Source: Ilex aquifolium
Lineage: Eukaryota > Streptophyta > Magnoliopsida > Aquifoliales > Aquifoliaceae
Direction of reading: 5' to 3'
Length of the DNA: 64,000 nucleotides
NCBI GenBank assembly: GCA_951799425.1
Contig: OX637396.1
Span: 32,728,701-32,792,700 of the forward strand
Below, in pieces: positions 7,927-57,671 of this stretch. Positions within the stretch are counted from its first letter, which is position 1, and each line of letters begins with the position of its first letter. The notes below the pieces were generated by a model that searched no databases, was not told the DNA's origin, and worked only from the letters and a program-made list of their open reading frames with translations. The translations under genes and the position numbers were made by a program.

Positions 7927-9098
7927 AATGTACAGAAGGAAACAGAAATGCAATCAACAAAAAAACTCCCCCTCCCCTCTTTAATGAAGTGTTTATTCTA
8001 CTTGTACGAGTCTATTTGTGATTTCATTTTACCATGAACAAGTGTTGGTGTTCTTGGCTGTCATTTCCCTTAAGTTATTTGACCAAGGATTGACTCGGAG
8101 ACAACTTAGACGACTCGGGATAATGGTATCGACTGTGAAGGTACTGTGTCGGATACGATTCGACCGACTCGTATTAGTATCGGCTAATACTTTGAACCAT
8201 GCAAGGGATGGTCAGTCCTTAGCGTGGGAATATTTTCTGGCAGCAGGACCCTATCTTCTTCCCAGTTTATGGGTGCACTCTTTATCTTGTGTGGAGTTTG
8301 TAAGTCCATTATTGGGAAGAAATGAAGCATATTAGAATGAGATGTGGAACTAGCAGTTCAGGGACAAAGGTCAGATTTGGATTTCATTATTGCAAATATG
8401 ATATTGATTATGAATTATGATCATTCATAACCATTGAATTGATAGTAAGTCTTAGTATTTGTTGTGATCTGCAACTGATCTAATAGTTGTGATGAATTAA
8501 ATTCGTAAATTATATTAACAAATTAGATTCAAGTAGCATTATTTTTCCGAAGCAGATTGGAGTCCACCATAAGGGGAGAATTTCTAGGTTGCTTGGCCAA
8601 CCATTGTTTGATTGAAAAGCGAACAAATAAATGCTTAAAAATTGGGTTAATTAGAGTCAAGGTAGTCACGTGAATGGATTTTATTTGGTGGACCTTATCC
8701 ACTTATTTATTTAATATTGGACGATTATATATTACATCAGCTAACAATGGTCGAAGATTACTGCCAGTGTAGCCTTACCCTAAATCAAAGATCCTATAGA
8801 ATAGCATAATTTACAGTTCACAATCTCCAAGTACGAAAATATCTTTTTTGCCTAGGATAAATTTTTTTTTTATTTTGTTTCATTTAATTGTGACACAAAG
8901 AAAATCATAAGAGACCGGGATTTGAGAAATACACATATATAGAAAGCGAAATACCGATATATTTGAGAGAAAAAGACATTTTTTGTTGGACACATATCTA
9001 TTCTCTATGCCCGAGTAACGAGGCTACTTTGGTAGAATAAATTATCATCTTGGATTCAAAGGCTGAATTACAACTTGATCAACACTTAGATAGTGGAA
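7927..9098. other. Intergenic region, no gene seen
   Basis: AT-rich spacer. A segment near 8075-8205 with repeated GACTCGG and GTATCGRC-like motifs looks like a decayed miniature element, but I could not define its ends. Confidence 0.4.
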
Positions 9099-9112
9099 TG
9101 ATGTTTCAATTA

Positions 9113-9709: not shown

Positions 9710-12700
9710 ATGGGTGGGGTGGTCGCGGATTCACAGTTTCATGTACTGGCAGTTGATGATAGTCTTATTGACAGAAAACTGATTGAGAGGCTTCTCAAGA
9801 TCTCTTCCTATCAAGGTATATAATATTAATGCTTACACACACACACACACACACATTATATATATACTGTGTATTCTAGAAAAGATAGATCATCGTTGGC
9901 TTGTTTTGTACTGGTTTTACTTATTTCTGATGGATTTTTTTTCTGGGTGTTTTTATTTTCTTGAATAACAGTGACTACTGTGGATTCTGGGAATGAGGCT
10001 TTGAAGTTTCTGGGTTTGCAAGACGAGGAACACAAAGATTCAGACCCTCCCTCCGTTTGTACAGCACACCACAATCATCGAGTATGTTTTTATCTCTAGT
10101 TGTTGCTTCAATCTTCTTCTTTCTTGTTCTCTCTCTCTTTCTCTATATATATTGTTACTTTTTGGTAACCTTTTTTTTCACCAGAAAATTTTCATTAAAT
10201 ATTAAATTTCTTACAAAAAAATTCATATTGGATTACTAGCTATTAATAAAAGTGATGTATATATGTGATTCAGAAAGTAAATACTACAGTTTTATATGTG
10301 TCTCTGTCTACATACAATTAAGCTTGGAGAGAAGAGTAAAACTGGATAAAGTAAAAACAAAAATAACAAAAACAAATGTTATTTAGATTGGTTCGATAAC
10401 TTTTTGTTTGTGTTTTTAAAAAAATAAAAATAAAAAAAAAATATATTTTTTTTTGTGGTAAAAACTAAAAAACATAAAACATAATTGATAGTCATTTATA
10501 TTTAAAAAATTATAAAAACAAAAATAAAAACACATGTTTGGTATTATACCAAAAATCCATCACCCAACGCTCCTATAAAACCTACCACTCAACACTCTTG
10601 CAAAACCCACCACCCAACAACCGAAAACTCATCATCAACACCCCTGAAAACCCACAACACACCTCCCTCCAAAACCCACCACCCAACCCACCAACGAACA
10701 CCACCAAAAATCCACCATTGAAAACCCACCATTCAACACCTCTGAAAACCCACCACCCAACCACAAAAAAATTAGACAGAGGCGAGAGAGGGAGACGGGA
10801 AAAAAGAGGAAGTGAAAGGGGGTATTTTTATATTCAAGAAAGAAAACTCATTTTTTTTTGTTGCCAAGGAGGATTGAAGGCAGAATCTCATTAATTCTAG
10901 GATGAAGCCTCCGCGTGTTTTTGTTTTTTGGTGTTTATGAAAATGTCTTTTTTTGTATTTTCAATTTTTGGCTTTGTTTTTAAAACAGAGTTCCTAAAAC
11001 AAAAAAAACATCACAAACACATTTTTTTTTTTTGGCAAAAATTGAAAACAAAAACATAAAAAAAAGCAACAATAGGTTACCGAACACAACTTTAGTGTAG
11101 GTGGGGAGTTAAACTAGAGTCAACACACGTGTTCGATGTCTGTGACACAAAAGAGATTAGTGGAAAAGATGGTTTGATATGAAAGAACTCAAACTGCCTA
11201 TTAATGAAGGGATCCGATATTTGGACAACAGGATTCTCGGGAGGTGAAGGCAGCTAAAGGCACTTCCACCAGTCAGATGACCGTAGTCTGAACATAGAGT
11301 CTCAGATTAGAATGCCAATGGGTCGCTCTCCACATCTGTGGATCAATCTTAGAATGCTCAAGCCAATGTGTGTACCACACAGGTAATTGGGTTGTCCGGG
11401 CTGCTCATACTGGCTATCACTAGCTGCCTTTGCACACAGTCAATGATGCCCTCGGACACTGTGCATACCTACAACCACCTCAGCCACTTTTGTACAGAGC
11501 TCTCACAATGCGTGCTGAGTGTCTCGGCATTAATTAGACAGATGTAATATTTTAAGGATACAACATGGATACGATTCTCGAGGAGGTTCAATCTATGAGG
11601 TTGAGGTGGTCATGGAGGTAGAAGAGTTGCGGACTGGGTTCCTGCGGTACTCATGACCATGGTGCTCCTAGGCCATGTATACCGCGAAGCCTCTCTTAGA
11701 GAACTCCTCCGAGTACTCGCCAAGATGCCCGCTCAAGGAACATTATAGTTTCGTTTCTCTAGTCTCCAATCCATATGTCCTAACATCTCATATGTTGATT
11801 CAGACCATTAACCTCATTTATCTTAGGAGTCCATTTGGATCCAAGTCAAGTACAAGCTAGTCAGCAATGAGTCATACACTAGGAGGCTTGCTCGAGCAAA
11901 TTAAACCTTCGAAGCCCTGCCCGAGATTGAGGTTGACAATCATGCTCGTCTGCCCATTCCTCAATTCTCCCTTAAGAAGGGTCATACTTCTTTATCTCAA
12001 GGCGGGATCTCTTTTCTTGGGCCAGTTGAGCATCGATATACAATTTGCCATGGATATACTTTCCACTTTTCGTAGGATCCTAGGTATGTTCGTTTACCAT
12101 TTCTGCAGCGAGGGAGACGGATTGCCCAAGTCACACCATGATTGTCCCCAAATGCTCGCAATACCACTCTTGTCATTTTGGATAAGGATCCATTTACCAT
12201 TTTGTGATAGTATACTTGTGGTGCCACTCTCGTCTCTTGGACGAGGATCCATTTGTCATTCCGCGGCGCTATGCTTGTGGTGCCACTCTCGTTTATTGGA
12301 CGAGGATTTATTGGACAATCCCATGATAGTATGCTCGTGGGCCACTCTTGTCTCTCGGACGAGGATCTATTTACCATTTGTTGCATTAACATGCTCGCAG
12401 GCCACTCTTGCCTTTTTGGACAAGGAATCATTTTGCCGCTTCCACGGTAATGGGGGAGTGCCCCTCCCTCCGCGGTGCCTGACACTCTCGTAGTCCCGGA
12501 CACTTTCTGCGGTTCTTGACCCCTTCTACGGTGCTTGCCCCCCTACCAATTGCAGGGTCTTGCTGGGACCCACCTAGCCACGTCAGCTCATGACCCTATG
12601 CCATTTATCCTCTACAGTGTGGACACTTGTCCTGATTCGAAAACGAAAAGAGTATTAAAACAAACTCTATCAAACTGAACCATGGTTTTTCACTATATAT

Positions 12701-53239: not shown

Positions 53240-54118
53240 GTTGAATCTCCAAGAAGTTTTCAAGTCTCTAATGGTCCACATCATTGGAGATGATCAGAAT
53301 ACTGGGACCATCATTGGAGATGATCAGAATACTAGTCTCTGGTATGACAACTGGCACCCCTTAGGTCCCCTCTTGCAAACCAATGAACAAAGGCTAATCC
53401 AAGTCACTAGAATTCCTAAGGAACTAAGGAAGCCATGGTTAGTACGATTGTGACTGGCAACCAATGGGACGGGTCTGATGCTGACTCAGAATATTTGCAA
53501 GCAATTGCCAACTCAATGCCAAACTATTCACCAGATCAGAGCAGAGCAGACTCGGTAAAATGGATTCCAAGTCCTTCAGGAAAATACTCAGTAAGTTCCA
53601 CTTGGGCACATATCAGGGTTATGGGTTCTGCAGTCAGATGGCATAAACTCATCTGGTTTGGGCAAAACATACCTAGAATGGCTTTCACTTTCTGACTTGC
53701 TGTCAAAAATATGTTGAGCAGAAAGGATAGAATCTTGGCGTACACTAACCAGTAATGGCGCTGAATGCATCTTATGCATGCAGGCTACAGATTCTCACCA
53801 CCACCTCTTCTTTGAATGTGAATTCTCCCACAAAGTCTGGACATCTATTCTCCTCATCAGCAATATCCACTAGCAGCAGAGGTTGTGGAATGAATTCATA
53901 CTACACTCCTATACATGCACCTCACAGCTAGTGTTTTACTTTCTTGTTGTTTTGCTACCTGACTCAGTGGTTTTGCATTCTGGTGGGAAGTACTAGCTCA
54001 AGGACTATACTCCCCCTAAAATGCAAATCATAAGTTAGGCTTTTGTAAGTTTATCTTCGCTCATCACTTGTATAGATTTTGCCTATCAATGAAATTTTAC
54101 CTTCCAAAAAAAAAAAAA
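53240..54118 (+). mobile_element. Degenerate LINE 3' end (zf-RVT region)
   Basis: Pieces in shifting frames give SLWYDNWHPLGPLL, then VKWIPSPSGKYSVSSTW, then RWHKLIWFGQNIPRMAF and LAVKNMLSRKDRI. This is the zinc-binding C-terminal region of plant L1-type reverse transcriptases. There is at least one frameshift near 53430 and an in-frame TGA near 53694. A 30-base direct duplication (ATTGGAGATGATCAGAATAC) is at 53280-53335. It ends with TATCAATGAAATTTTACCTTCC and a poly-A at 54107-54118. Only the 3' end is present. Confidence 0.8.
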
Positions 54119-54278
54119 GATTTAATCTTCGCTCATCACTTGTATACACTGTAAGCCTTGTTTAGACTATTATTATTATTAGTATTATCATTTTGTAGTT
54201 GTTATTGTTGTTGTATTTAGTTCATTTTGTGTTAACCCATTTATTTAATTAATCTAACGGGTCTTATCTATTTACCAG

Positions 54279-54863
54279 TGATGATACCTAGAAAAAAGCT
54301 CTAAGTATGAGCTCGGACATTGAGGTCAGACAAGGAGGTCAGACACAGTAACCAGGGCTCCGCAATCCAGACCTCAAGCTCTGCTCAAAGAAAACAAATG
54401 GGAAATTGAAAGGGAAACAGCTGGCTGGTGAATGGCATCCTCAAAGCAATGGAAAGCTAGAATCAAGGCACAAAACTCTCAACTAACCAAGATTCTCTCC
54501 CAAAAATCAAGGAAGATCCCACGGATGAAGGGCAAAGATCTCGGTAAAAATCCCTTAGAGATAGGAATTACACTATAAATATTGTACATCGCCTCAATCA
54601 AGGGGCAGAGAACCCTACTGGCATCAAAGACATCTTGTAAAATATTTTCTAGATGAATATAGATTCTTGGAGCAAGAGACTCCATTGAAGAGTGGACTAG
54701 CCGAGCTCAATAGCCGGTGAACCACTATATTTCTATGTGTTACACACACCGCACCTCAGATAACTAGAGCACTCACACACAATTTCATGAGCCTCGTAGC
54801 TCAGATCCATCCCATACCATCGAACCCAAACTCATTGCACATTCGTGTAAAATTACATCATCA
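54279..54863 (+). repeat. 5' LTR of the gag-only retrotransposon
   Basis: 585 bases, TG...CA, with the AAAGACATCTTGTAAAATA and AATATTGTACATCG segments shared with the 3' copy. Differences seen: GGTCAGACA here against GGTCAAACA, and TTGCACATT against TTGCTCATT. Confidence 0.93.
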
Positions 54864-54925
54864 GTTTGGCGTCGTCTGTGGGAACGACAGTTCTTGTTAC
54901 AAATATACTGATTTTTCAGTGATTG

Positions 54926-56185
54926 ATGGTTTCTACACGAAACATGAGTAGAAGTCAAATAAATCCACCACGAGTGACAGATCAACATGACGCCACCGAC
55001 GACGGACAGCCTGAGAACGTCCAGGAGACGAATCCTCCCAGGGGAGTTCCCCCCACCAACAATGAGTTGGCAACCCTTCGCCAAGCCAACGAGCGCTTGA
55101 TACAACAAAATGAGGAACTCTTGAAACACTTGCACTGCCCACAGGAGGCACAACGGGCCCAAGAAGGCCAGAATAACCCCCCACGCAGGGAGCAGCAACA
55201 CCCCAACCCCCTCAGAGAAGCCGACGAAAGGTTGGAAAATAGCCAGACCATGGGGGAAGTCCCTCATCAACCCCTTAGGAACGGCCACAACGAAGAGGTA
55301 CAAAGTCAGAACGATGGGGGCGAGAGGGACGATTTTTTTCCCTATCAGTAGGACAAGAGAGAACAACACTGGGAGCAACGTTTTAAGGACATCCAGCAAA
55401 AGCTCAGCCACATGAAAGAGGCTATAAAGAGCAAGACTCCGGTTACAATGGACGCCCTAGTACAACAGACTAAGTCCCCATTCACCACTGGAGTGCTGCA
55501 CTTTCCTCTCCCACCAAAGTTCAGGATGCCTCAGATAGAGGTCTTTGACGGAACGAAAGATCCCGTAGATCATCTCAACACTTACAAGAACCAGATGGAG
55601 CTGCATGGATACCAGGATCCTGTACGTTGCAGAGCTTTTGCCATCACGTTAAAAGGCTCTGCCCTGGCCTGGTTTCACAGTCTCCCACCAGCCTCGATCT
55701 CATCCTTTAGAGAGCTCTCCATAGCTTTTGTATCTCACTTTATAGGAGCTCGGATATACAGAAAGCCGAGCTACCACCTGTTGAATGTAAAACAGGGACC
55801 CAACGAGAACCTACGGTCTTATGTCCAAAAGTTCAATTCAGAATCCCTGAAGATAGATATTCCAGATGAGAAGTTTGCTATCACTGCTTTCATTGCTGGA
55901 TTAGGAGTGAAATCGAAAGATTTGATATTTTTTATATCAAAGAACCCGCAAGCAAGCATGGCAGAGGTGTTGGCTAAAGCAGAAAAATATATTAATGGCG
56001 AGGAAGCCCTTCTCTCAAAGGTAGGGAGCTCATCCTCACAGAAGGAAAAAGTGAAGGAAGAAAATAAGAGGGATCGAAGTCCTAGGAAAGAAAGAGGACG
56101 AGATAGGTCCCCAAGAAGATACAGGGATCGCTCCCCCAAGAGAAGGGAAGATGTCAGAGAACAAGACGAGCTCTTCAGCTTATGA
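54926..56185 (+). CDS. Retrotransposon gag, with one in-frame TAG
   Basis: The frame runs from MVSTRNMSRSQ to DVREQDELFSL with a TAG at 55349-55351, about 140 codons in. Before it lies a Gln/Asn/Glu-rich, probably coiled segment. After it lies the retrotransposon gag (capsid-like) domain: FRMPQIEVFDGTKDP, then HLNTYKNQMELHGY, LKGSALAWFHSLPP, FVSHFIGAR and NENLRSYVQKFN. The tail is Arg/Ser-rich (RDRSPRK, RRYRDRSPKRR). No CCHC zinc knuckle is visible. The last codons overlap the first hairpin repeat. The TAG either kills the copy or is read through; I cannot tell which. Confidence 0.85.
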
Positions 56186-56192
56186 ACATCAT

Positions 56193-56408
56193 ATGAGCTC
56201 TTCAGCTCATAAATTTAAGATGAGCTCTTCAGCTCATAAACTCAAGATGAGCTCTTCAGCTCATAAACTCAAGATAAGCTCTTTAGCTCATAAATTTAAG
56301 ATGAGCTCTTCAGCTCATAAACTCAAGATGAACTCTTCAACTCATAAACATCCGATGAGTTCTTCAGCTCATAAATTCATGATGGGCTCTTCAGCTCATA
56401 AATTCACG
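56193..56408 (+). repeat. 27-base tandem hairpin repeat, eight units
   Basis: Unit ATGAGCT-CTTC-AGCTCAT followed by nine bases (AAATTTAAG or AAACTCAAG). Each unit contains a 7-base stem with a 4-base loop. A partial unit already occurs at 56167 inside the gag end. The unit is a multiple of three, so one frame reads a 9-residue repeat (MSSSAHKFK). Confidence 0.9.
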
Positions 56409-56808
56409 ATGAACTCTTCAGTTCATCACTTGAGCCACGCAGCTCACGATGAACTATTCAGTTCATAACTTGAGCCAAGCAGCTCACGATGAACTCTTCA
56501 GTTCATAACTTGAGCCACGCAGCTCACGATGAACTATTCAGTTCATAACTTGAGCCAAACAGCTCACGATGAACTCTTCAGTTCATAACTTGAGCCAAGC
56601 AGCTCACGATGAACTGTTCAGTTCATAACTTGAGCCAAGCAACTCACGATGAACTCTTCAGTTCATAACTTGAGCCACGCAGCTCACGATGAACTATTCA
56701 GTTCATAACTTGAGCCAAGCAGCTCACGCTGAACTCTTCAGCTCATAATATGAGCCACGTAGCTCACGCTGAACTATTCAGTTCATGATATGAGCAACAC
56801 AGCCCACG
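56409..56808 (+). repeat. 40-base tandem hairpin repeat, ten units
   Basis: Unit ATGAACT-CTTC-AGTTCAT, AACT, then TGAGC-CACGCA-GCTCA and CG. Each holds two hairpins. Loop bases alternate between neighbouring units (CTTC then ATTC; CACG then CAAG), which points to an 80-base higher-order unit. It follows directly on the 27-base array and shares its palindromic core. Confidence 0.9.
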
Positions 56809-57081
56809 AAGAACTCCAATAGTTCAGAAAAGAGCCTAGGAGCTCGGAATGGGCTATTTAATTCCTAAAAAGAGCTCAGCAGCTCATAAAGTCAATAATT
56901 GTGCTTTAAGAAGCACTGAAGTACTTCTCGAAGCAATGGGAACTCGGCAACCGTAGGAAAAGCAGCAGCTCTCTGCACCTCGAGCTCATGCAAATCGAGG
57001 TCGATGTGTGGAAGTCTATCTCAATTCAGCATCGACTCAGCCCCTGCCCAAGCTCGCTTGGGCCAAGGGCTGGGGGGCAAC

Positions 57082-57666
57082 TGATGATACCTAGAAAAAA
57101 GCTCTAAGTATGAGCTCGGACATTGAGGTCAAACAAGGAGGTCAGACACAGTAACCAGGGCTCCGCAATCCAGACCTCAAGCTCTGCTCAAAGAAAACAA
57201 ATGGGAAATTGAAAGGGAAACAGCTGGCTGGTGAATGGCATCCTCAAAGCAATGGAAAGCTAGAATCAAGGCACAAAACTCTCAACTAACCAAGATTCTC
57301 TCCCAAAAATCAAGGAAGATCCCACGGATGAAGGGCAAAGATCTCGGTAAAAATCCCTTAGAGATAGGAATTACACTATAAATATTGTACATCGCCTCAA
57401 TCAAGGGGCAGAGAACCCTACTGGCATCAAAGACATCTTGTAAAATATTTTCTAGATGAATATAGATTCTTGGAGCAAGAGACTCCATTGAAGAGTGGAC
57501 TAGCCGAGCTCAATAGCCGGTGAACCACTATATTTCTATGTGTTACACACACCGCACCTCAGATAACTAGAGCACTCACACACAATTTCATGAGCCTCGT
57601 AGCTCAGATCCATCCCATACCATCGAACCCAAACTCATTGCTCATTCGTGTAAAATTACATCATCA
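57082..57666 (+). repeat. 3' LTR of the gag-only retrotransposon
   Basis: 585 bases, preceded by a purine-rich tract and followed by the ACCAG duplication. Almost identical to the 5' LTR. Confidence 0.93.
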
Positions 57667-57671
57667 ACCAG

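Follow-up and report, generated by a model that had tools for sequence, protein, structure and literature searches.

A short dyad recurring in the tandem arrays and the LTR leader of a gag-only retrotransposon of Ilex aquifolium

The window, a stretch of 64,000 bases of Ilex aquifolium DNA (GCA_951799425.1, contig OX637396.1, positions 32,728,701 to 32,792,700, forward strand), carries a young 3.4 kb gag-only LTR retrotransposon that is bounded by a 5-base target duplication (Table 1). Two LTRs, the target duplication, a primer site region and a purine tract give it the structure of a TR-GAG element, and both Pfam and BLAST analyses indicated gag without pol. Eight of the larger among 17 frames were scanned with Pfam, and the gag part alone gave a match above cut-off (Retrotrans_gag, 9.7e-15); no pol part of the element aligned by BLAST with L059 and L060, two relatives with longer frames. 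An earlier sequence-only reading of the locus, which had proposed a gag-only element whose array is flanked by gag on one side and by the purine tract on the other, was borne out in this respect. TR-GAG elements were reportedly described by Chaparro in 2015. Directly to the left of the element, at 53560-54040, lies a possible fragment of another retroelement, as judged by eye, and elsewhere in the window a tandem repeat with a 59-base unit (3.6 copies) occupies 12164-12378.

Table 1. Positions in the window of the features of the gag-only element.
Feature	Position	Strand	Remarks
LTR element, whole	54279-57666	+	3,388 bases
Left target site duplication, ACCAG	54274-54278	+	right copy at 57667-57671
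5' LTR	54279-54863	+	585 bases; 2 mismatches to 3' LTR
Leader dyad, TGAGC-CTCGTA-GCTCA	54788-54803	+	in 5' LTR; second copy at 57591-57606 in 3' LTR
Primer binding site region, TTTGGCGTCGTCTGTGGGAAC	54865-54885	+	named by place and resemblance
gag	54923-56185	+	broken in the window copy by an in-frame TAG at 55349-55351
27-base hairpin array	56165-56407	+	9 units; corresponds to the array that follows pol in L059 and L060
40-base array	56408-56807	+	10 units, each with two dyads, ATGAACT/AGTTCAT and TGAGC/GCTCA
Two decayed 40-base units	56808-56887	+	GAGC-N6-GCTC dyads still present
Polypurine tract region, AAGGGCTGGGGGGCAAC	57065-57081	+	
3' LTR	57082-57666	+	585 bases

The 800 Mb genome was searched with the array DNA (40 of 1602 candidates scored, 82 matches) and with a 257-residue part of gag (148 of 11767 candidates scored), and 41 distinct gag-only copies were compared, namely the window copy, 20 copies from the search loci and 20 further copies. 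Both arrays were present in all 41 copies, some of which had been picked through the array itself, and also in all 13 copies that were found by gag and lay outside the 40 scored loci of the array search. Absence of the arrays from most copies, the outcome that the sequence-only reading had named as telling against itself, was thus not observed. The number of units, as counted by a parser, ranged across the 41 copies from 3 to 19 in the 27-base array and from 9 to 37 in the 40-base array. LTR pairs could be compared in 20 of the copies and differed by 0 to 7 mismatches over 376 to 585 bases; identical 5-base flanks were found in 18 of these 20. Among the gag-search matches listed, none that combined a longer frame with closer kinship was conspicuous, and such a relative may exist.

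The 3' part of gag (55412-56185) is open in the window copy and ends in an RS-rich basic tail. The site of the in-frame stop is CAA in 16 of the 41 copies, CAG in 13, TAG in one and not found in 11, so that among the 30 copies in which it was found the stop belongs to the window copy alone, the other 29 having CAA or CAG. A 734-base piece of gag, outside of which this TAG falls, contained no stop in 33 of the 41 gag-only copies and a stop in the remaining eight. Substitution rates were calculated on the same piece (Nei-Gojobori method with Jukes-Cantor correction, stop codons skipped and insertions dropped, gaps in 4 of 43 alignments). Within the 41 copies dN/dS was 0.32 and dS was 0.046, while comparison of the gag-only copies with L059 and L060 gave dS values of 0.99 and 1.11 and a dN of 0.04, and the dS between L059 and L060 was 0.40. 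Judged from the open frames and the dN/dS, gag has been kept open in the family, as in TR-GAG elements, and is under selection.

In all 41 copies the gag frame ends inside the first array unit, after the RS-rich basic tail. Comparison of window positions 56120-56185 with L059 and L060 showed that the gag-only Gag keeps this tail and that its stop precedes a cysteine/histidine stretch; the gag frame of L059 and L060 runs on to CDYHRDHGHHTDDC, which we take to be a zinc-knuckle stretch. The strict C..C....H....C pattern had no match in this stretch of the two relatives. Since the gag-only Gag is without the presumed zinc-knuckle stretch, RNA binding of its own is uncertain.

Pfam domains for gag, RT, RT-type RNase H, a second RNase H and integrase were identified in L060, and the same set was identified in L059, with gag detected by BLAST and the integrase core just below the cut-off. 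In both relatives the second RNase H lies between RT and integrase (RVT_3/RNase_H beside RT_RNaseH), and an antisense Transposase_28 domain lies downstream of pol and the array (1.5e-9 in L059 and 7.2e-10 in L060). A dual RNase H is a hallmark of Tat elements. An antisense gene is given as typical of Retand in the relevant part of a survey of these elements (PMC11963269). On both features L059 and L060 are classified as Retand/Tat type; stops or shifts interrupt the frames of both, and activity of either is not implied. The window element is judged from its relatives to be of Ty3/gypsy type, and its gag and array match those of the Retand/Tat-type relatives in sequence. Compared with L059, it is without everything from the basic tail of gag to the post-pol hairpin array, and with this stretch missing the array abuts gag and is followed by the 40-base array and the purine tract.

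Directly 3' of pol, L059 and L060 carry a hairpin array with a period of 55, built from two alternating units, one of 27 bases (ATGAGCT/AGCTCAT) and one of 28 bases (ATAAGCT/AGCTTAT). Eight further relatives were taken from the low end of the gag-search matches, and 1.4 kb was examined in each at the same distance from gag; these eight are counted as relatives by their longer frames, of 447 to 1170 codons, pol being known in L059 and L060 alone. The sequence-only reading had suggested a search for the array in an autonomous Gypsy relative with the same LTRs. Nine of the ten relatives had a hairpin array of this kind, while no partner with matching LTRs came to light. The 55-base array was present in L061, L063, L065 and L066. 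L067 and L068 had a 41-base array containing GAACT/AGTTC and CGAGC-N6-GCTCA, L062 had a 40-base array, and no hairpin array was found within the 1.4 kb stretch of L064. Nearer its 3' end, L060 has a short second 40-base array (8992-9112) with GAACTTTCAAGTTC hairpins.

In the window copy, Tandem Repeats Finder placed the 27-base array at 56164-56426 (9.8 copies) and the 40-base array at 56404-56816 (10.3 copies). The sequence-only reading had described an array of 18 units at 56193-56808, and 18 units do lie inside this interval, with less uniformity than had been described. The 27-base stem ATGAGCT/AGCTCAT is perfect in four of the eight units of its type in the interval, two others having A-C mismatches and two a G-U type pair. 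The 40-base stem ATGAACT/AGTTCAT is perfect in eight of ten units, as is the second hairpin TGAGC/GCTCA, and the alternation with a period of 80 bases is nearly but not fully regular (first loop base C,A,C,A,C,G,C,A,C,A). At up to three mismatches the hairpin core was matched 21 times, whereas shuffles gave an expectation of 0.33; two of the 21 matches represent the opposite strand of units already counted. Over 726 bases, 14 local stems of at least six pairs were found, and 10 shuffles averaged 1.5. In RNA folding, single units formed the expected hairpins, as had been drawn, but when the array was folded in full the minimum-energy structure consisted mostly of pairings between arms of different units and not of 18 separate hairpins. 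The full array folded far better than its shuffles (z -14.2, 20 shuffles), as would any tandem palindrome. Comparison with known RNA families gave only MIR8706, below threshold (22.5 bits, with a cut-off of 95). An open reading frame of 105 codons (56151-56468) spans the 27-base array in a frame that differs from that of gag. DUF6470, the only Pfam match obtained for a coding repeat, was below cut-off (14.5 bits against 28.9).

The hairpins of the arrays and the hairpin in the LTR leader are versions of one dyad, GAGC-N6-GCTC. The arm versions AAGC/GCTT and GAAC/GTTC occur beside it, so that three coexist at one spacing. In the window, GAGCCNNGYAGCTC had nine occurrences, of which two lay in the LTRs and seven in the array, and 100 shuffles contained none. 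When distinct contexts of GAGC-Nk-GCTC were counted in the element and its relatives, 41 were found at k = 6, with 26 different loops, against no more than five for each of the remaining spacings between k = 2 and k = 20; at k = 6 there were 13 for AAGC/GCTT, 17 for GAAC/GTTC and 0 to 3 for six control arm pairs, counts which are not independent, as contexts inside one array are related. The leader dyad was found at up to two substitutions in 9 of 11 LTRs (the window element and ten relatives), the exceptions in the LTR alignment being an insertion in L073 and decay in L076. Among the gag-only copies it was present in the 5' part of all 41 at no more than one substitution, and 32 were identical to the window copy. 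The second dyad of L067 and L068, CGAGCCATGTAGCTCA, resembles the leader dyads of L059 and L060 (CGAGCCTTGTAGCTCA and CGAGCCTCGTAGCTCA).

Constraint on the arms was examined by comparing unit majorities between lineages, for the 27-base unit in six relatives and the gag-only family and for the 28-base unit in the six relatives. None of 28 arm sites was variable, against 10 of 27 other sites (Fisher p 0.0003), a contrast that stems from six arrays of one type, among which those of L061, L063, L065 and L066 are close kin, and that leaves out L062, L067 and L068, whose arrays differ, and L064, with none in the stretch examined. The same counts were obtained when units were sorted by length alone, and with the three arm sites used for sorting dropped they were 0 of 22 against 10 of 27 (p 0.001). 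Comparison of L059 with L060, which are separated by a gag dS of 0.40, gave 0 of 28 arm sites and 8 of 27 other sites, and L059, L060, L061 and the gag-only family alone gave 0 of 28 and 9 of 27. Similarity of the arrays as such could be maintained by exchange between lineages, but this would not make arms more alike than spacers. Conservation of the arms relative to other sites between lineages, as expected of an RNA hairpin, was thus found in one array type.

The spread of variants within arrays was also examined, in an analysis that was designed after the data had been seen and whose outcome depends on the cut. Among variants in at least three units, multiplication, defined as two units per carrier, was reached by none of 30 pair-breaking variants, 3 of 17 paired variants and 8 of 51 non-stem variants; when the cut was lowered to two units, one pair-breaking variant out of 35 had spread. 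The Fisher test of paired against broken variants gave 0.03 to 0.10 and the rank test 0.09 to 0.12, and addition of the non-stem variants gave Fisher values of 0.007 to 0.044. The ratio of shared to private variants did not differ significantly between stems (46/17) and elsewhere (53/10; p 0.19).

Matched arm changes recur between array types, but as few events. The change that the sequence-only reading had noted between the 27-base and the 40-base unit, at pair 5, was confirmed, and a second case was found in the relatives, at pair 3, where the 27-base and 28-base units (ATGAGCT/AGCTCAT against ATAAGCT/AGCTTAT) alternate unit by unit. Pair 2 was C-G in three units near array ends (L061, L063 and L065), and the first pair of the second dyad was C-G in one unit of L062. 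In the 40-base array of L029, six units read GAGTC/AACTC, the last pair of the second dyad having changed from C-G to T-A, and the G-U intermediate of this change was present in 28 of the 41 copies. The 27-base and 40-base stems may or may not share an origin.

The sequence-only reading had also taken the paired changes to suggest that the fold is kept, and in this it failed within the gag-only family. Compensatory pairing above chance was not found in any of the three stems in the arrays of the 41 copies: the paired fraction was 0.854 against 0.855 shuffled for the 27-type (39 distinct cores), 0.850 against 0.853 for the 40-type (58 distinct cores) and 0.922 against 0.918 for distinct 40-mers (n = 138), where 151 of 2000 shuffles reached the observed value. 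Covariation in the gag-only and 55-base arrays pooled was strong (0 of 2000 shuffles), and since it rests on few old events it is not counted as many. We reasoned that under strand-symmetric mutation in a palindrome G-U and A-C cells should be equal, an excess of G-U indicating selection on the sense RNA. For distinct units of the gag-only arrays, G-U and A-C cells numbered 20/30, 66/33 and 20/34 in the three stems, one leaning to G-U and two to A-C, and 106/97 in total (70/62 in private and 36/35 in shared units), and thus no preference for G-U was seen overall. Nor was one seen in the 55-base arrays of the relatives, with 13 distinct G-U cells and 21 A-C cells. This speaks for DNA or for no function, as a sense-RNA fold under selection should show such a preference.

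The reading that we favour, tentatively and at less than even confidence, is that the dyad is a cis-acting RNA hairpin. On the genomic RNA a single copy would lie in the 5' leader and a large number close to the 3' end. As the RNA is packaged or the particle assembled, Gag or some other protein of the particle would recognise the hairpin, the strength of the recognition coming from the number of hairpins; the step from the dyad to recognition of the RNA is one that we infer. A gag-only element has to bring its cis-acting signals itself, and every copy examined has retained the arrays; the reading would account for this retention despite the loss of pol and of the antisense gene. Arm versions that coexist at one spacing suit recognition of shape, and hence an RNA hairpin in the leader and the 3' array, and redundancy among many units would explain why single units drift freely.

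A serious rival, which we hold to be almost as likely, is that the arrays are instead neutral, having grown by slippage or template switching in reverse transcription, with palindromes favoured as hairpins that stall the enzyme, and have no function for the element. Such arrays are described, in the passages that treat them, as common, family-specific and variable in number among copies (PMC11963269, PMC7004042), and the ranges of unit number in the gag-only copies, together with pairing no better than chance within the family and the lack of a G-U preference, are as this explanation would predict. It accounts less well for arms that are identical to the letter between lineages while neighbouring sites change, since stalling would favour any paired arms, and growth of arrays leaves the leader dyad, which lies in the LTR outside the arrays, unexplained.

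A less likely but still serious rival is that the dyad is a palindromic DNA site, repeated for strength, to which a protein of the element or of the host would bind, in the manner of VANC proteins and the repeated motifs of VANDAL elements. The antisense Transposase_28 domain encoded downstream of the array in L059 and L060 could supply such a protein, having been predicted by others to bind DNA (PMC11963269, in the part that concerns it), and symmetric half-sites at fixed spacing without a G-U preference would suit DNA. Three arm versions at one spacing would, however, be awkward for a single sequence-specific dimer, and the Transposase_28 gene was not found in the window element, so that the protein would have to act in trans. 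That the 27-base array codes for the extension of a protein with a 9-residue repeat, a possibility raised by the sequence-only reading on the strength of an open frame that does exist, is hardly credible, because that frame is not the frame of gag, gag stops inside the first unit in 41 of 41 copies, and the period of 55 in six relatives is not a multiple of three.

A broader proposal may also be put forward, although we consider it unlikely. Retand arrays would be amplified copies of the leader hairpin, forming a 3' multi-copy signal by which RNAs compete for particles, and gag-only parasites, reduced to hardly more than the leader, a truncated Gag and the signal, would compete with their helpers by hairpin number.

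Neither gag-only elements nor arrays in this position are new. In the parts of the 2025 Retand survey that concern arrays (Vicient 2025, PMC11963269), arrays between pol and the 3' LTR are reported for about half of recently active elements, and their origin and eventual function are called unknown. As here, the arrays of the survey adjoin pol or the 3' LTR and vary in copy number, and the antisense Transposase_28 gene and second RNase H of L059 and L060 are further points of likeness (PMC11963269). Size, place and number are the terms in which the survey describes its arrays; its text contains neither "hairpin" nor "inverted" nor "secondary structure", and "palindrom" occurs only in a cited title. 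The incomplete clusters in Table 1 of the survey still have internal regions of several kilobases, whereas the window element has gag alone and a length of 3.4 kb. Tat-lineage arrays have been described as a source of satellites (PMC7004042), and semi-autonomous wheat elements that encode Gag have been described as well (PMC9744471), in the passages concerned.

The window element resembles TR-GAG elements, as characterised in the relevant passages of PMC8704663, in its LTRs, single gag gene, lack of a detected pol and multicopy state. Another TR-GAG, an ATCOPIA63 element, has been seen to transpose in Arabidopsis ddm1 (PMC8704663); in contrast to it, the window element is of Ty3/gypsy type, has a Gag that ends before the presumed zinc knuckle, and carries hairpin arrays. 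The VANC/VANDAL anti-silencing system, as outlined in the corresponding parts of PMC5735166, is similar in that a short motif with one-base versions is tandemly multiplied in non-coding parts of a plant transposon, but VANDAL belongs to another transposon class, its 9-base motif is not palindromic, and binding was established there by experiment, whereas the dyad described here is known from sequence. For Ty1 and Ty3, signals at the RNA ends suffice for transposition with proteins supplied in trans, a further likeness, and the passages that state this describe no tandem hairpin array (PMC4974528). Among titles and abstract openings on hairpin, stem-loop or palindromic arrays in such elements, in which subscription papers were sparsely covered, none describes a dyad common to leader and arrays, and a description may exist elsewhere in print.

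In conclusion, the Retand-type arrays studied here reduce to one dyad, which is also located in the LTR leader and whose arms are conserved between lineages. The outcome is a concrete, testable motif, together with a minimal natural element, consisting of gag plus dyads, in which it may be tested.
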